DNA of 24,580 nucleotides from a virus, in the IMG/VR virus record IMGVR_UViG_3300021142_000172, positions 1 through 24,580 of that record. The stretch is one strand, 5' to 3'. The position numbers and the translations under genes were made by a program. Shown in pieces: positions 12,360 to 23,633 of the stretch. Numbering within the stretch: position 1 is the stretch's first letter; every line of letters starts with the position of its first letter. The notes beneath the pieces are model-generated. The model searched no databases. It saw nothing but the letters and a program-made list of their open reading frames with translations, and was not told the DNA's origin.

Positions 12360-15300
12360 TTATTTGAATAATTTTTTCATTCTTATTTCAGAACCCATTC
12401 TATTTATAGGTTTAAAAGTCTGTCTCCTTATACTTAATTTTTTACCATAATCTTTAGGAGCAGCAAATCTAGGATCTTCGTTTTCTACGGATATTTTTAA
12501 CTTTTGTGCATCTAGTTTTCTAGCAGCAGTGATTGCTAAACTAGCTGCTATTTCTCTATCAAAGTTACCATCCTTATTCCACTTTATAATTTCTTCTAAT
12601 AAAGTAGGATCATTTATTTTACTAACTCCTAATACTTTTCTAGTTTCTGTTAAACCAGGAACAGGAATAGAAGTAAAAACTTCTTCCATGTATTGTTTAA
12701 GATTAGTTCTTAGTAATTCTTTTATTTTAGGAGCTGCACTACTTACTCCTTTACTTCTTGATAAAGTACTGGAATTAGGCACTTCTATTCTAACCCATTC
12801 AGGAGTGTCCATTAAATAATGTCCTTCTCCTTTAGCTATCATATAATCAATAAAAGACATTTCATCATTTTCACATAATGTTATTGCATTATAATATTTG
12901 ATAAGAAGTCTTGCATTATTATTCCAACTTTCTTTACTATCAGGTCTACCAACATACCAAGCTACAAGCATATCCTGAAATGAATCATTCAATACATCAT
13001 AAGCTCTTTTAAAGATATACACTGCTCCTAAAGAATCTGAATTAGCTGCTTTTTCAAATCTATATGGGTCAACTCCTGCTACATACAAACCCCAAGGAGT
13101 TATAGTAGGATGTTCTATAATTACTATAGGAGTATTTTTATTTTCAGTTTGTATACATGGGTAAGAAGATATAGGACATTTGCTACTAGGCTTGTGAATA
13201 ATTTTAACATCTTCTACTTGTATAGAAGAATTACTATTATGAGTAACTTGTGCTTCTTCTAGTTCTACCCACATACCTATTTTTAATCCTGGAAATTTTC
13301 TTTCTAACTCATCTTTTTGTTTCTGAGCTATATCACCATTATAAAAATTCTCTGAAGAAGAAAGAAAGCATTCTTTAGGAGTTAAAGGAAAATACATAAT
13401 CAGTTTTAAATATTCTGTCTGATCAGGGTCTCCTGCCTTTAATCTTCTTTCTTCTTTTATTTTTGCTAATGCCTTTTCTTTATCAGATACTAAAATAGGT
13501 ATTTGACTTAATTCTGGATAATATCCTTCTGGAAGTTTTCCTTCTCCTATTAAGTATTCAGCTAAATTAGTTTGGTATTTACAATCTGTTCTAAATAGAC
13601 CAGACATAAATAAACCAGTTCTTTCACCAGTTTCTTGATTTACAAAAGGTAAAAAGTTATTTGCTTCAGGGTGATAAAATAACCTTTCAGCATCATCTCC
13701 TTTTTCAAATGCACCACCTGTACCAACAAGTATAGGAATAGCTCTCCAACCATATTTAGACATAAAGGCTGGTTTTGCAGCCTCTAATGCTTGAGAGAAA
13801 GGAGCCTTTCCTATTTCATCCATTATGAATGATTTAGCAGAAAGACCTGCTGGACCTTCTGTGTTCTGACCTTCTGCTATATTTCTTATTATTATGTGAG
13901 ACCATATAATATCTTCACCATCAGTAGCTTTGTAACCTAAACTTATAGATTTAGCCCTCTTGTCTTTAGTAAGTCTAGGTATTCTCATACCATCCCATAC
14001 TTTACTAAGACCATAATTAAGCCTTAATTTCAAATTATCCAAATCATCTTCACTACCACTTACAACTGCATTTTGACTCTTCTTAAAAAGAGTAGCATTA
14101 TAAGCAATAAAAGAAGATTCGATTGTTGAATTATGGGTAATAGTATAATTATCTGTTAAGAATAAATGAGAACTATTGTCTACCATTATACAAGTAGCCT
14201 CACCATCAAATACATATTCAATATTAGTTATTGCTGTATTTTCTAAATATTTAGGATTTCTTTTTATATTATTTAATTTCCTACTTAATTTAAAAATAGG
14301 TTTACTAGTATATAAAATAAATCTAGTTGTATCTTTACAATCTATTTTTATTCCGTTTTTTTTATATGAAGTTTTTTTATTTTTTTTAGATAAGTTAATA
14401 CCCAAACTTCTACAAAGTTTATAGAAACCATCAGCTAATGCAGGTATAGAAGAACTAAATTCAATCTTTCCTTCTTTAGAACATGATCCATCAGAGTCCA
14501 TTAATCCCCTAAGTAATTCCATTCTTTGTTCAATAGAACAATATTGGTATATATCTGGAATTTTTTTATTATTGTATAATCCAGATTCTTTTAAATAATT
14601 ATGAAATATGTTTCTTCTATAATCATGTCCTCCTACTATACCAGAAGTAATACCATAAGTAATACTACCCTCTGTATTTGATACCTGTAACCCAATACTA
14701 TATGCATAAGACTTAATACTATCTATTATCTCATCATCTATATTAGTAATTCTTACATCCGAACTACTACCATCTCCTAACCATAGTCCTAAGATATAAG
14801 GATCAATAGGAAGAAGTTTTTCATCATATTGAATTGCTTTATTATTAGGGATAGAGTATTTAAATTCATATGGATTTTTTCTAGTTTTAGTCCAGTCTAA
14901 TCTTATTTTTTTATAATCGTCTAAAAGTTCTTTAGTATTTTTTACTATATTTTTTTTAGTAATTCTGTTATAAACAAACCAATTATGTTCTAAACCACAA
15001 AAAATTTCTCTACCATCAAGTAAAGTTAACTTATATATAGGTTTCTTACCTTGAGGATACTTCCCAATGATAGTAGTAAGTTTACCAGAGTCGTCATATA
15101 TCTGTTGTCCTACTTTACAGTCTCCTATAGTTATTTCTTTATTGGCTGTGTAAAGTAAAGAAGAGTTTAATAATTCCTTCCCCCCCTGTCTTAAACCTAC
15201 CTCTATATAACCTTTTAAACCATCAGGATGATTTCTACAAGCTTCTAAGGCTTCTGCTCTTATCCACTCATTATCTCTCAAAGAAGTAACAGTTTCAAAA

Positions 15301-15515
15301 GGAACAATATTACCAAACTCATCCTTAATATCATCAGTTATCCACCAATGATTAATATGCCAATATAACCATCCAGATATAAATATTCCATCTACATATA
15401 CCCCACCAGTACATCTATCCTTTTCTTGCTTTATTAAAGCTTTTCTGGCTTCTGTACCTTTAGCAGGTATACTTTTTAAGTTCTTAAAAAATTCTGAATA
15501 TTTTATATTTTCCAT
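12360..15515 (-). CDS. terL: terminase large subunit, interrupted by an intein
   Basis: A 1051-aa precursor encoding the DNA-packaging motor. Residues 114-462 are an in-frame intein; joining 1-113 to 463-1051 gives a 702-aa TerL. The join rebuilds a perfect Walker A, GLRQGGK + ST, split exactly between Lys and Ser. Walker B is FIMDE (residues 563-567), the coupling segment is VGTGG about 597-601, and LTPKECFL about 711-718 precedes the nuclease. The RNase H-like nuclease acidic residues are Asp816 (GVDPYR), Glu882 or Glu885 (CENDE) and Asp986 (NFDREIA). Its ATG overlaps the stop of the 104-aa gene (TAATG), and portal follows 4 nt later. ATP binding requires splicing, since the unspliced Walker A is GGKE. 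Confidence 0.92.
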   Translation of the reverse strand: MENIKYSEFFKNLKSIPAKGTEARKALIKQEKDRCTGGVYVDGIFISGWLYWHINHWWITDDIKDEFGNIVPFETVTSLRDNEWIRAEALEACRNHPDGLKGYIEVGLRQGGKELLNSSLLYTANKEITIGDCKVGQQIYDDSGKLTTIIGKYPQGKKPIYKLTLLDGREIFCGLEHNWFVYNRITKKNIVKNTKELLDDYKKIRLDWTKTRKNPYEFKYSIPNNKAIQYDEKLLPIDPYILGLWLGDGSSSDVRITNIDDEIIDSIKSYAYSIGLQVSNTEGSITYGITSGIVGGHDYRRNIFHNYLKESGLYNNKKIPDIYQYCSIEQRMELLRGLMDSDGSCSKEGKIEFSSSIPALADGFYKLCRSLGINLSKKNKKTSYKKNGIKIDCKDTTRFILYTSKPIFKLSRKLNNIKRNPKYLENTAITNIEYVFDGEATCIMVDNSSHLFLTDNYTITHNSTIESSFIAYNATLFKKSQNAVVSGSEDDLDNLKLRLNYGLSKVWDGMRIPRLTKDKRAKSISLGYKATDGEDIIWSHIIIRNIAEGQNTEGPAGLSAKSFIMDEIGKAPFSQALEAAKPAFMSKYGWRAIPILVGTGGAFEKGDDAERLFYHPEANNFLPFVNQETGERTGLFMSGLFRTDCKYQTNLAEYLIGEGKLPEGYYPELSQIPILVSDKEKALAKIKEERRLKAGDPDQTEYLKLIMYFPLTPKECFLSSSENFYNGDIAQKQKDELERKFPGLKIGMWVELEEAQVTHNSNSSIQVEDVKIIHKPSSKCPISSYPCIQTENKNTPIVIIEHPTITPWGLYVAGVDPYRFEKAANSDSLGAVYIFKRAYDVLNDSFQDMLVAWYVGRPDSKESWNNNARLLIKYYNAITLCENDEMSFIDYMIAKGEGHYLMDTPEWVRIEVPNSSTLSRSKGVSSAAPKIKELLRTNLKQYMEEVFTSIPVPGLTETRKVLGVSKINDPTLLEEIIKWNKDGNFDREIAASLAITAARKLDAQKLKISVENEDPRFAAPKDYGKKLSIRRQTFKPINRMGSEIRMKKLFK
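14130..15176 (-). mobile_element. class 3-type intein with LAGLIDADG endonuclease in TerL
   Basis: A 349-aa protein-splicing element between Lys113 and Ser463 of the TerL precursor. Block A aligns with IGDCKVGQQIYDDSG. Block B is GREIFCGLEHNW (168-179). The C-terminal blocks are TCIMVDNSSHLFL and ITHN|S. It shows the class 3 signature: Trp179 at B:12, Cys442 at F:4 and Thr460 at G:5, with His461-Asn462 and +1 Ser. Position 1 is Glu, not Cys/Ser/Ala, as allowed when Cys at F:4 is the first nucleophile. The middle carries two LAGLIDADG helices, ILGLWLGDG (Asp248) and LLRGLMDSDG (Asp342), so homing activity is likely retained. Boundaries rest on the rebuilt Walker A and on block A spacing. Confidence 0.88.
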
Positions 15516-20036: not shown

Positions 20037-20045
20037 AATAAATTG

Positions 20046-20118
20046 GGTATCTAACTAGAATCGAACTAGCATCAAGGGATTCACAGTCCCCTACTCTGAC
20101 CATTGAGCTATAGACACC
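20046..20118 (-). tRNA. tRNA-His (GUG)
   Basis: Minus-strand cloverleaf. The acceptor stem GTGTCTA pairs with TAGATAC, the loop is CTGTGAA with anticodon GTG, and the T arm is GCTAG-TTCGATT-CTAGT. An extra encoded 5' G opposite C73 is the hallmark of tRNA-His. No CCA end is encoded. Confidence 0.9.
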
Positions 20119-20128
20119 ATATAAAGAG

Positions 20129-20199
20129 TAGTCCTACCTGGATTTGAACCAAGACTAGCAGGGTCAAAGTCTGCTGTGCTACCATTATACTATAGGACT
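20129..20199 (-). tRNA. tRNA-Gln (UUG)
   Basis: The acceptor stem AGTCCTA/TAGGACT is perfect. Loop CTTTGAC gives anticodon TTG, and A73 follows. The T arm is canonical (GGTTCAAATCC). The closing pair of the anticodon stem looks like an A-C mismatch. CCA is not encoded. Confidence 0.85.
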
Positions 20200-20207
20200 A
20201 ATTGTTG

Positions 20208-20279
20208 CGGGAATACAGGTGTCTGAACCCTGATCTAACGATTAACAGTCGTTTGCTTAACCACTAAAGCTTTATTCCC
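20208..20279 (-). tRNA. tRNA-Asn (GUU)
   Basis: Acceptor GGGAATA/TATTCCC, anticodon arm AACGA-CTGTTAA-TCGTT with anticodon GTT, and G73. The T arm has a G-A mismatch next to the loop. CCA is not encoded. Confidence 0.88.
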
Positions 20280-20284
20280 AAATG

Positions 20285-20356
20285 CGGGCTATACGGGACT
20301 CAAACCCGTTCCTCTGTATAGACAGTACAGAAGCTTAATCCATCGCCTAATAGCCC
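20285..20356 (-). tRNA. tRNA-Asp (GUC)
   Basis: Acceptor GGGCTAT/ATAGCCC, anticodon arm CTGTA-CTGTCTA-TACAG with anticodon GTC, T arm ACGGG-TTTGAGT-CCCGT, and G73 as expected for Asp. CCA is not encoded. Confidence 0.9.
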
Positions 20357-20420
20357 ATAACACCTTTCTACGCTGTCCTTTTTTATCAGGACCCTATGTA
20401 AGATAAACAGTCTCTCTTCG
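20357..20420 (-). other. 64-nt spacer with hairpin inside the tRNA array
   Basis: No tRNA can be folded here. A 5-bp hairpin (GTCCT/AGGAC, 20375-20379 with 20388-20392, 8-nt loop) is the only structure seen. The spacer is much longer than the others in the array, so it may be a decayed tRNA or a processing signal. Confidence 0.3.
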
Positions 20421-20494
20421 TCTAAGTGGTGGGAATCGAGCCCACGAACACTCCCTTCCAGGGGGAGCAAGTATAGCCTCTGCATAACACCTAG
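20421..20494 (-). tRNA. unusual tRNA, Pro (UGG) or Ser (GGA)
   Basis: Acceptor CTAGGTG/CACTTAG with A73 and a perfect T arm (GTGGG-CTCGATT-CCCAC) mark a tRNA. The anticodon stem CTCCC/GGGAG encloses loop CCTGGAA. Read as a 7-nt loop the anticodon is TGG (Pro), but position 33 is then C instead of the near-universal U. Placing U33 at the T gives GGA (Ser), yet the variable loop is short, unlike tRNA-Ser. C1-G72 and A73 favour Pro. The D arm is weakly paired. Confidence 0.65.
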
Positions 20495-20504
20495 ATATTT
20501 AATG

Positions 20505-20562
20505 TGCCCTAGATAGGAGTCAAACCTACAAGCCTCTGATTCTAAGTTCCCGTCACTGGGGC
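20505..20562 (-). tRNA. shortened tRNA-like element (no normal D arm)
   Basis: Acceptor-like strands GCCCCAG and CTAGGGC (one mismatch) and a T arm GTAGG-TTTGACT-CCTAT are present and correctly spaced, with A73. Only about 26 nt separate acceptor and T arm, too few for both a D arm and an anticodon arm, and no clean anticodon stem is found. It is either a tRNA with an internal deletion or a mimic. Confidence 0.45.
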
Positions 20563-20568
20563 ATTTTG

Positions 20569-20639
20569 CACAGGCTTTAGGACTCGAACCTAAATGAACG
20601 GTTTTGGAGACCGTCATACTACCATTGTATGAAACCTGT
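20569..20639 (-). tRNA. tRNA-Trp (CCA)
   Basis: Acceptor ACAGGTT/AGCCTGT, D arm ATAC-AATGGTA-GTAT, anticodon arm ACGGT-CTCCAAA-ACCGT with anticodon CCA, T arm TTAGG-TTCGAGT-CCTAA, and G73 typical of Trp. CCA is not encoded at the 3' end. Confidence 0.92.
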
Positions 20640-20646
20640 ATATAAC

Positions 20647-20672
20647 AAAAAACCCTTACAAAATTGTAAGGG
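20647..20672 (-). terminator. intrinsic terminator after the fMet unit
   Basis: A perfect 9-bp stem CCCTTACAA/TTGTAAGGG (20653-20661 with 20664-20672) is followed on the minus strand by six T. It lies between tRNA-fMet and tRNA-Trp, so it separates the initiator tRNA from the rest of the array unless read through. Confidence 0.82.
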
Positions 20673-20790
20673 CTATTATCTTTCATATTATTATATGACA
20701 TATAATCAACCCTTATCATCAGTATTTTGATGATTCCAGCTAGGTTGATTATTAAGTATCATTGTTATCTTTTTCATATAATAAATTTTG
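20673..20790 (-). ncRNA. structured trailer RNA downstream of tRNA-fMet
   Basis: Between tRNA-fMet and the terminator lies a nested hairpin. Outer arms ATAATCAACC (20702-20711) and 20743-20752 pair over 10 bp. Inside them ATCATCA (20715-20721) pairs with 20728-20734 over 7 bp. A further CATAT/ATATG hairpin spans 20684-20697. With the promoter at 20877 and terminator at 20647 this would form a short tRNA-plus-RNA transcript. No protein frame explains the pairing. A sequence-specific binding site is an alternative. Confidence 0.5.
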
Positions 20791-20865
<75 letters not shown>

Positions 20866-21624: not shown

Positions 21625-21647
21625 TATTATATGTTAAGACAAAGTTA
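21614..21647 (-). promoter_or_regulatory. candidate -7 element(s) for small-gene cluster
   Basis: Two TAnnTTTG matches lie on the minus strand, TAACTTTG at 21640-21647 (overlapping the GIY-YIG stop) and TATATTTG at 21614-21621. The latter has TTTG 18 nt upstream and would yield a nearly leaderless message from the ATG at 21609. Which is used cannot be told. Confidence 0.4.
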
Positions 21648-22302
21648 TAGTTCTTTTTCTTCTTTTTGGTTTATAACCAATATAATCAAACAAAGGGTTA
21701 TATTGTTCTTGTCTCATAAAGAGATAACCTTTAATACTTCTCATCCTATTATATTCTTTTATAGCTTCCCCTTTAACCCATTTCCAATAATTGAAACATT
21801 TATATATTTGTTTCTCTTTTATATCAAGATCCTTGATTGCTTGTGGTACATTATCGTATCTACCAATATGACCATTATTTGTATTAATACAGATAATGGG
21901 GTAATTCTTTTTGATCCTTTCTTTCTTTATAATAGGTTCTTTAGTTTTGTTTCTTTCCTTTATTGGTTGTAGCCACTTTTCTTTTTCATCTGGTATATTT
22001 ATATTAAAACCTTTCTCAGGATTTATTGAATCATAAAATCTTATCCAGTAAGATTCCCTTTCTTCAAACTGCTCTACAATACACTCCTCTAGAATAGCAT
22101 GAGAGAAGCATTCCTTTCCATACAGATCCCAAGCAGCCTGTATATGAGGATTAATTCCTTTACCCTGTTTCATATGAGACCAATGGTCCCATACCCTATG
22201 TATTATATTCTTTGAGGAACCTATATAAACCTTATTGTTTTTACCACAGTGGATGATATATATTCCACATTTTTTCTCCATTTTATTATAATAATCTTTC
22301 AT
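21634..22302 (-). CDS. GIY-YIG endonuclease, Seg-like
   Basis: A 222-aa nuclease. It shows GIYIIHCG at residues 13-20, VYIGSS at 25-30, catalytic Arg36 in IIHRVWDH, the HIQAAWDLYGKECFSHAILE segment typical of Seg/intron GIY-YIG enzymes, and a candidate catalytic Glu in EERESYW (80-86). The C-terminal half is basic with a helix-turn-helix-like repeat (VPQAIKDLDIKEKQIYKCF), probably for DNA binding. Met8 is an alternative start. A full promoter lies 31 nt upstream, so it is a free-standing gene at the boundary between the two transcription halves. Confidence 0.88.
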   Translation of the reverse strand: MKDYYNKMEKKCGIYIIHCGKNNKVYIGSSKNIIHRVWDHWSHMKQGKGINPHIQAAWDLYGKECFSHAILEECIVEQFEERESYWIRFYDSINPEKGFNINIPDEKEKWLQPIKERNKTKEPIIKKERIKKNYPIICINTNNGHIGRYDNVPQAIKDLDIKEKQIYKCFNYWKWVKGEAIKEYNRMRSIKGYLFMRQEQYNPLFDYIGYKPKRRKRTITLS

Positions 22303-23023: not shown

Positions 23024-23139
23024 TGAGAGTTAGTAGAACTAACGACCTTATTGAGAAGTAATTTGTTATGTATGCTAACATTGATTACCAATAGTTTATG
23101 TATTATTCATTTAATACTATCTATAGTAATCAGTGTTAG
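23024..23139. repeat. inverted repeats before the HNH gene end
   Basis: GTTAGT-AGA-ACTAAC (about 23029-23043) is a perfect small hairpin. CTAACATTGATTAC (23075-23088) pairs with 23126-23139 over 14 bp with one G-U, overlapping the stop of the HNH gene. The second may act as a 3'-end structure for the leftward HNH message. Confidence 0.5.
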
Positions 23140-23633
23140 TTATACATATAATGGTATATTCTTTCTACTTGTTTCTTAAAATCTTTAACAGAGTAAGACC
23201 ATTTCATTGTGTTACAATGACAACAACAAGGTGTACAATTTTCTATAGTATAGCCTTGTTTACTATCTATTCTATCAATAGTTGAGGCTTCAGAACCACA
23301 GTAAGAACAAGTTCCTGATATTAATTTAAAGAACTCTTCTATAGATAGTTTAAATTCTAAGCCTTTCTTATTAGCTCTTGCTATATAAGCTTTATACTTA
23401 GGAGGAAGATTTTGTTTATATTTAAGTCTATGCTTACCTTTATCCTTTCTTTCTTCTTTATCTTTTAATATTTGTTTCTTATTATCTTCCCTTATCTTAT
23501 TTATAAAAGATTTCTCTGCTTTTATTTCTTTAGATCTAGTATATAATCTATAATACTTCTTATATTCTTCATCAGTAAGAGATAAGAAATCTACATCTGG
23601 ATTATTAATCTCTATATATTCTTTTATATTCAT
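23136..23633 (-). CDS. HNH homing endonuclease, free-standing
   Basis: A 165-aa nuclease. The HNH core lies at residues 109-145: CSYCG (Cys109, Cys112), STIDRIDSKQGYTIENC as the beta hairpin with the conserved Asp/Arg/Asp pattern of phage HNH enzymes, then CCCHCNTMK with the second zinc pair and the conserved Asn. The first 75 residues are a highly charged helix that probably binds DNA. It is on the opposite strand to its neighbours and has its own promoter, typical for a mobile gene. No intron sequence is evident around it. Confidence 0.88.
   Translation of the reverse strand: MNIKEYIEINNPDVDFLSLTDEEYKKYYRLYTRSKEIKAEKSFINKIREDNKKQILKDKEERKDKGKHRLKYKQNLPPKYKAYIARANKKGLEFKLSIEEFFKLISGTCSYCGSEASTIDRIDSKQGYTIENCTPCCCHCNTMKWSYSVKDFKKQVERIYHYMYN

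Follow-up and report, generated by a model that had tools for sequence, protein, structure and literature searches.

The terminase gene and its insertion

The window, by which we mean the whole 24,580-base stretch that was analysed, is a single metagenomic fragment from a virus. Its TerL gene is an open reading frame of 1051 amino acids at 12360-15515 (minus strand, as are all features placed on the window below) that matches the PHROG terminase phrog_6681 (E 2.4e-73) and, at E 1e-37, PHROG terminase models that include an intein. Portal and major head protein models from PHROG match the neighbouring genes, and among the crAss-like phages that the TerL itself matches are Cellulophaga phi17:2 and csAssE-Sib; on these grounds crAss-like is a fair name for the virus, with no family rank attached. 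TerL relatives that have no intein reach 64% identity to the window TerL, the nearest of them being L014. Elsewhere in the window are a homing-type gene with a weak GIY-YIG match (2276-2860), a cluster of seven tRNAs (20045-20865; His, Gln, Asn, Asp, Pro, Trp and Met), a clear homing endonuclease gene of the GIY-YIG kind (21634-22302) and an HNH endonuclease gene (23136-23633).

The precursor begins with an N-extein of 113 amino acids (15177-15515), whose last residues, GLRQGGK (15177-15197), form the beginning of Walker A, and finishes with a C-extein of 589 amino acids (12363-14129), which opens with the remainder of that motif, Ser+1 and Thr+2 (14124-14129), and holds the remaining ATPase and the nuclease domain. 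Between the two lies a segment of 349 amino acids (E1 to N349, precursor residues 114-462; 14130-15176) with the features of a class 3 intein carrying a LAGLIDADG homing endonuclease. With the splice junctions marked by a slash, its N side reads IEVGLRQGGK/ELLNSSLLYT and its C side LTDNYTITHN/STIESS, and its removal in silico leaves a TerL of 702 amino acids with an unbroken Walker A, GLRQGGKST. Position 1 is Glu1 (GAA, 15174-15176), which is not a nucleophile and which, in the structural model described below, lines up with the first residue of solved inteins. Further along are His64 at B:10 (14985-14987) and Trp66 at B:12 (14979-14981), followed by the first LAGLIDADG motif, GLWLGDG with Asp135 (14769-14789), the second, LLRGLMDSDG with Asp229 (14487-14516), the predicted first nucleophile Cys329 at F:4 (14190-14192) and the C-terminal end, Thr347-His348-Asn349 (G:5 to G:7; 14130-14138). 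His64 and Cys329 are invariant in alignment A4; Trp66, Cys329 and Thr347 are the members of the WCT triplet. An earlier note on this DNA had given coordinates, lengths and residues for the intein, and these proved to be exact. Its further observations also stand: the class 3 triplet and both LAGLIDADG aspartates are present, the split between Lys and Ser rebuilds Walker A exactly, and position 1 is without a classic nucleophile. The rebuilt GLRQGGK/ST has the layout seen in intein-free relatives, and the alignment, the structure and the alleles that have no intein all fix the boundary at position 1.

Relatives in IMG/VR had to be found with alignments as queries, a single protein query giving few, and the searches with the C-extein used two small alignments. 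Among 118 related TerL loci readable at the site, 100 have an uninterrupted P-loop, with S or T immediately after K, and 18, some of them duplicate records, contain an intein there. The earlier note had named intein-free homologues with a different junction as a ground for refutation, and none of the 100 has one. The occupied and empty states can be compared directly in L035 (on the same contig as L200) and L336, whose exteins are 98% identical in amino acids and whose flanking DNA is 90% and 97% identical; where L336 reads AAG/TCT, L035 has an exact insertion of 1047 bp at the K/S point used in the window, AAA/GCT...AAC/TCA. L035/L200 and L336 form a natural pair that is well suited to a test of homing.

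Class, fold and first residue

Class 3 inteins are defined by the WCT triplet, by initiation at the Cys of F:4 and by Ser or Thr at +1 (PMC5222942, PMC3196547, PMC7891396). The window intein has no nucleophile at position 1, and it has the complete WCT, H64, H348 and N349, and Ser+1; where a class 1 intein would begin with Cys, Ser or Thr, this one has Glu1. Two LAGLIDADG motifs, each with its catalytic Asp, lie between blocks B and F, and Pfam homing-endonuclease models match the intein at E 3e-12, with PF05204 and PF14528 above cut-off. Against cultured phages, tblastn gave full-length matches down to E 2e-49; the records of such phages hold 774 homologues of the intein, 519 of which cover at least 80% of its length. 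Taken with the PHROG and Pfam scores, these matches lie far outside what chance would give. The insert is very probably a class 3 intein of the bifunctional, homing type, a mobile element that sits in the Walker A P-loop of a terminase from a crAss-like phage.

When the PDB was searched with the single sequence, the best match to the splicing domain was 6riz, which is gp41-1 with engineered class 3 residues and which came above natural gp41-1. A profile search, which the earlier note had proposed as a check, was led by class 3 DnaB inteins (E 6e-33) and not by class 1, although this result is partly circular as the rows of the profile had been chosen for WCT. An AlphaFold2 model of the intein with 10 extein residues on each side (pLDDT 93.2, pTM 0.91) matches PI-SceI, the VMA1 intein, as a whole (Z 29.0, 2.8 Å, 321 residues); the two share an overall two-domain architecture, but PI-SceI is a larger, class 1 intein with Cys1 from a yeast V-ATPase. 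The splicing domain of the model superposes upon that of class 3 MsmDnaB1 (6bs8) with a Z of 20.6 and an rmsd of 1.5 Å over 123 of 125 residues; E1 falls on the first residue of MsmDnaB1, and N349 on its residue 139. The class 3 mini-inteins MsmDnaB1 and MchDnaB1 (6bs8, 6rix, 6riy) agree with the window intein in the fold of the splicing domain and in how WCT and His are arranged, but have Ala1 and a DnaB helicase extein and lack an endonuclease. The fold comparison is blind to class, since class 1 gp41-1 gives a Z of 19.5, about 1 under the class 3 structures (Foldseek/VIA). The intein trees described below contain only inteins with Cys at F:4 and no class 1 rows.

Two other identities for the insert were considered and rejected. 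The first, a class 1 intein that begins elsewhere, fails on the alignment, the superposition of the model and the empty sites. The second is a group I or group II intron; against it, the open reading frame is continuous, the intein blocks are complete and Rfam shows only tRNAs in the window.

The earlier note had also called a glutamate at position 1 unusual, and this did not hold up. Position 1 was read in 187 distinct WCT inteins, a sample that does not give population frequencies since the searches behind it relied on conserved motifs, for the most part those of the endonuclease. In this sample Ala leads (126 cases) and Glu comes second (11), ahead of Asp (7), Ser and Met (6 each), Pro and Cys (5 each), Gly, Gln and Leu (4 each), Val (3), Arg and Phe (2 each) and Thr and Asn (1 each). 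The +1 residue is S or T in all 187, while WCT and HN are constant among them by selection. A tree of 100 rows, built without residue 1, needs no fewer than 9 gains or losses of Glu to account for its 11 Glu tips; a tree of 47 rows needs 8 for 12 such tips. Glu1 with the full WCT is found in L300, from the same TerL group (GGRQGGK/ELADYE...THN/SEMEAS), and in inteins of two cultured phages, the TerL of Bacteroides phage B124-14 (VPPQTGK/ELSDST...THN/SEG) and Vibrio phage USC-1 (RQQGK/ELSVDA...THN/TV). These last two share with the window intein the P-loop arrangement GK/E...THN followed by S or T, but are only about 28% identical to it, and the USC-1 intein is shorter (293 amino acids) and without the endonuclease Asp. 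Glu1 as a unique feature is ruled out by this recurrence.

As far as the evidence shows, Glu1 is a tolerated residue that has arisen repeatedly, without a role of its own on present evidence. Residue 1 need not be a nucleophile because in class 3 the Cys of F:4 makes the first attack, and on the simplest reading it would merely be part of the leaving group and free to drift. Glu1 can be regarded as settled, a natural and repeatedly acquired class 3 state, which agrees with an internal Cys attacking first. The TerL group of the window has 9 distinct inteins in Walker A (DAC15 left out), and 6 of these begin with Asp or Glu.

Related inteins and mobility

The kind of element is already known, as published class 3 TerL P-loop inteins splice and home. 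In mycobacteriophages, TerL inteins interrupt the P-loop just after its invariant Lys, ahead of the hydroxyl residue, or else one residue away; a reporter showed fast splicing for several of them, and the P-loop intein in the TerL of BAKA both splices and cut the intein-free TerL of a partner phage (PMC5050341). The mycobacteriophage TerL1-b inteins (BAKA gp6; Zelink gp10) resemble the window intein in gene function, in their place in the P-loop and in a full-length match of about 32% (31.8% identity to the BAKA record by tblastn). Zelink (L010), a close relative of BAKA, also has WCT and both LAGLIDADG Asp residues, but has Gly1 where the window has Glu1, and the mycobacteriophage TerL inteins belong to another terminase family and another phage group.

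Nearer to the window, TerLs of Delta-group crAss-like phages are reported typically to have an intein, to which the accessible part of the paper assigns no splicing class (PMC7886860). The crAss-like TerL inteins (Delta group, DAC15 and csAssE-Sib) share the K/S or K/T point in Walker A and WCT (L008, L274), but have Ala1; the DAC15 intein is 33% identical to that of the window. The csAssE-Sib intein (L274, OR575929.1, 1720-2442) is also unlike that of the window in being a class 3 mini-intein of 241 amino acids without the endonuclease domain; it belongs to an epsilon crAss-like phage, is annotated only as terminase, and no splicing terms were found in the accessible text of the genome paper (PMC11054128). 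The IMG/VR TerL inteins L036, L196, L198, L201, L035, L197 and L300 lie at the same site, have WCT and are 39-48% identical to the window intein; position 1 is Asp in L036, L196, L198 and L201, Ala in L035 and L197, and Glu in L300.

The distribution of the intein is sporadic. Its presence on a TerL tree of 56 exteins changes 7 times, and all of these changes are forced by supported branches. The similarity of inteins and that of exteins are uncoupled: between the window and L036 identity is 48% for the inteins against 30% for the exteins, and between the window and L300 it is 40% against 48%. The TerLs of the window and L300 fall in one supported clade, and an AU test rejects their inteins as sisters with a p of 0.02, which is generous as the pair was picked after the trees had been seen. 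The branch that gives the window intein its sister has weak support (80/22), and both the TerL and the intein trees have long branches. At the Walker A site, the window, L035, L036, L196, L198 and L300 keep their endonuclease Asp residues; in L197 one motif is changed from DSDG to DSAG, in L201 both LAGLIDADG Asp residues are lost and a Pfam scan of that intein gave no endonuclease match, and in csAssE-Sib the whole domain is missing. Such a range from intact to absent endonucleases, together with the sporadic presence, is what one would expect if the element is acquired through homing and decays afterwards. The distribution thus supports mobility, and the window intein is predicted to have an active endonuclease.

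Predicted splicing and other inteins among the relatives

The precursor is made with its P-loop broken between Lys-1 and Ser+1, a break that is evident in the sequence and would be expected to cost the protein its ATPase. Following class 3 biochemistry, Cys329, aided by His64 and placed by Trp66 and Thr347, would attack the Lys113-Glu1 bond to give a branched thioester at block F; Ser+1 would take the N-extein over, and Asn349, assisted by His348, would cyclise, which would release the intein and link GGK to ST in an active TerL of 702 amino acids. The LAGLIDADG endonuclease of the freed intein may then cut intein-free TerL alleles, into which the intein would be copied. Since the P-loop is interrupted in the precursor, we infer that the unspliced protein would be without a working P-loop and that packaging would depend upon splicing.

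It could be argued that the window intein is a decayed relic that no longer splices, for instance with Glu1, beside the scissile bond, spoiling the first step, and that TerL function comes from another copy. One inactive class 3 pseudo-intein, Arth_1007, is known (PMC3196547), and the same-site relative L201 is without its endonuclease Asp residues. However, Arth_1007 lacks both the F:4 Cys and the B:10 His, which the window intein retains in an open frame with all catalytic positions intact. Further, no fewer than 13 other WCT inteins begin with Glu, almost all of them in ATPase P-loops and the one in the TerL of cultured B124-14 among them; an essential gene would not allow a dead intein in such recurrent cases, and a relic is therefore very unlikely. 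Neither class 2 nor class 3 requires a nucleophile at position 1 (PMC5222942), so that Ser+1 might attack the Lys-Glu bond directly, a class 2-like start beneath a class 3 signature. This route seems highly improbable, given that W66 and C329 are present, that the change C(F:4)A ended splicing in three tested class 3 inteins (PMC5222942) and that class 2 has been reported from KlbA genes only (PMC3196547).

Insertion in a catalytic loop ties activity to splicing, and the intein might on that account act as a packaging switch, with conditional P-loop splicing (redox at Cys329, or metal) delaying the ATPase until late infection. M. smegmatis DnaB inteins are described as stress-responsive and zinc as an inhibitor of DnaB splicing in mycobacteria (PMC6195587, PMC7360933). 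Yet the intein is absent from most close TerL relatives, so that such control is not needed for packaging; the mycobacteriophage TerL inteins splice fast (PMC5050341), and no regulatory feature was seen. We regard a switch as unlikely. An acidic residue 1 beside the P-loop Lys could also slow or gate the attack of Cys329 and make TerL activation conditional rather than constitutive, although this is a decidedly improbable role for Glu1. It is hardly conceivable that the insertion is an assembly chimera: the virus is represented by one metagenomic contig only, and no other copy of the very same virus turned up to confirm the Glu codon, but the insertion is in frame and exactly at K/S, all conserved blocks are kept and nine further crAss-like TerL inteins, each distinct, lie at the same point. 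The preferred reading, a class 3 intein in the TerL P-loop, takes the window intein to be real and probably active, with splicing predicted from its sequence.

Several other inteins were met among the relatives. The TerL of L308 (IMGVR_UViG_3300017791_000207) has a class 3 LAGLIDADG intein (WCT, Ala1) in Walker B, FILDE/ALEENELLY...THN/CGKFPF, which is 42% identical to that of the window. Its +1 residue is Cys, said to be known from one class 3 intein only (PMC5222942); 101 relatives read DEIGK (87) or DEVGK (14) at this point, and none DECGK. With endonucleases intact, decayed or missing at one site, the pair with 98% identical exteins and this Walker B relative, the crAss-like TerL set offers a natural series for studies of homing.

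The TerL of L024 (open reading frame from 4001) has an uninterrupted Walker A and, elsewhere, an intein of the class 1 type with Cys1 and no WCT (LLFG/C...THN/TGG). In crAssphages cr131_1 and cr118_1 (L275 and L276) the TerL inteins lie downstream, in the nuclease half (GLYIAG/C...HN/CDP), and the cr131_1 TerL has in-frame stop codons under table 11. P-loop inteins of Lactococcus phage AM5 (L013) and Staphylococcus phage CF5 (L367) have the F:4 Cys and THN, with Ile for Trp at B:12 and with Cys1 in AM5 and Ala1 in CF5; it is possible that these two are intermediates between classes. Two class 3 inteins occur in one locus in L266, and L240, L246 and L248 each combine in one locus a class 3 intein with one of the class 1 type (Cys1, Cys+1).
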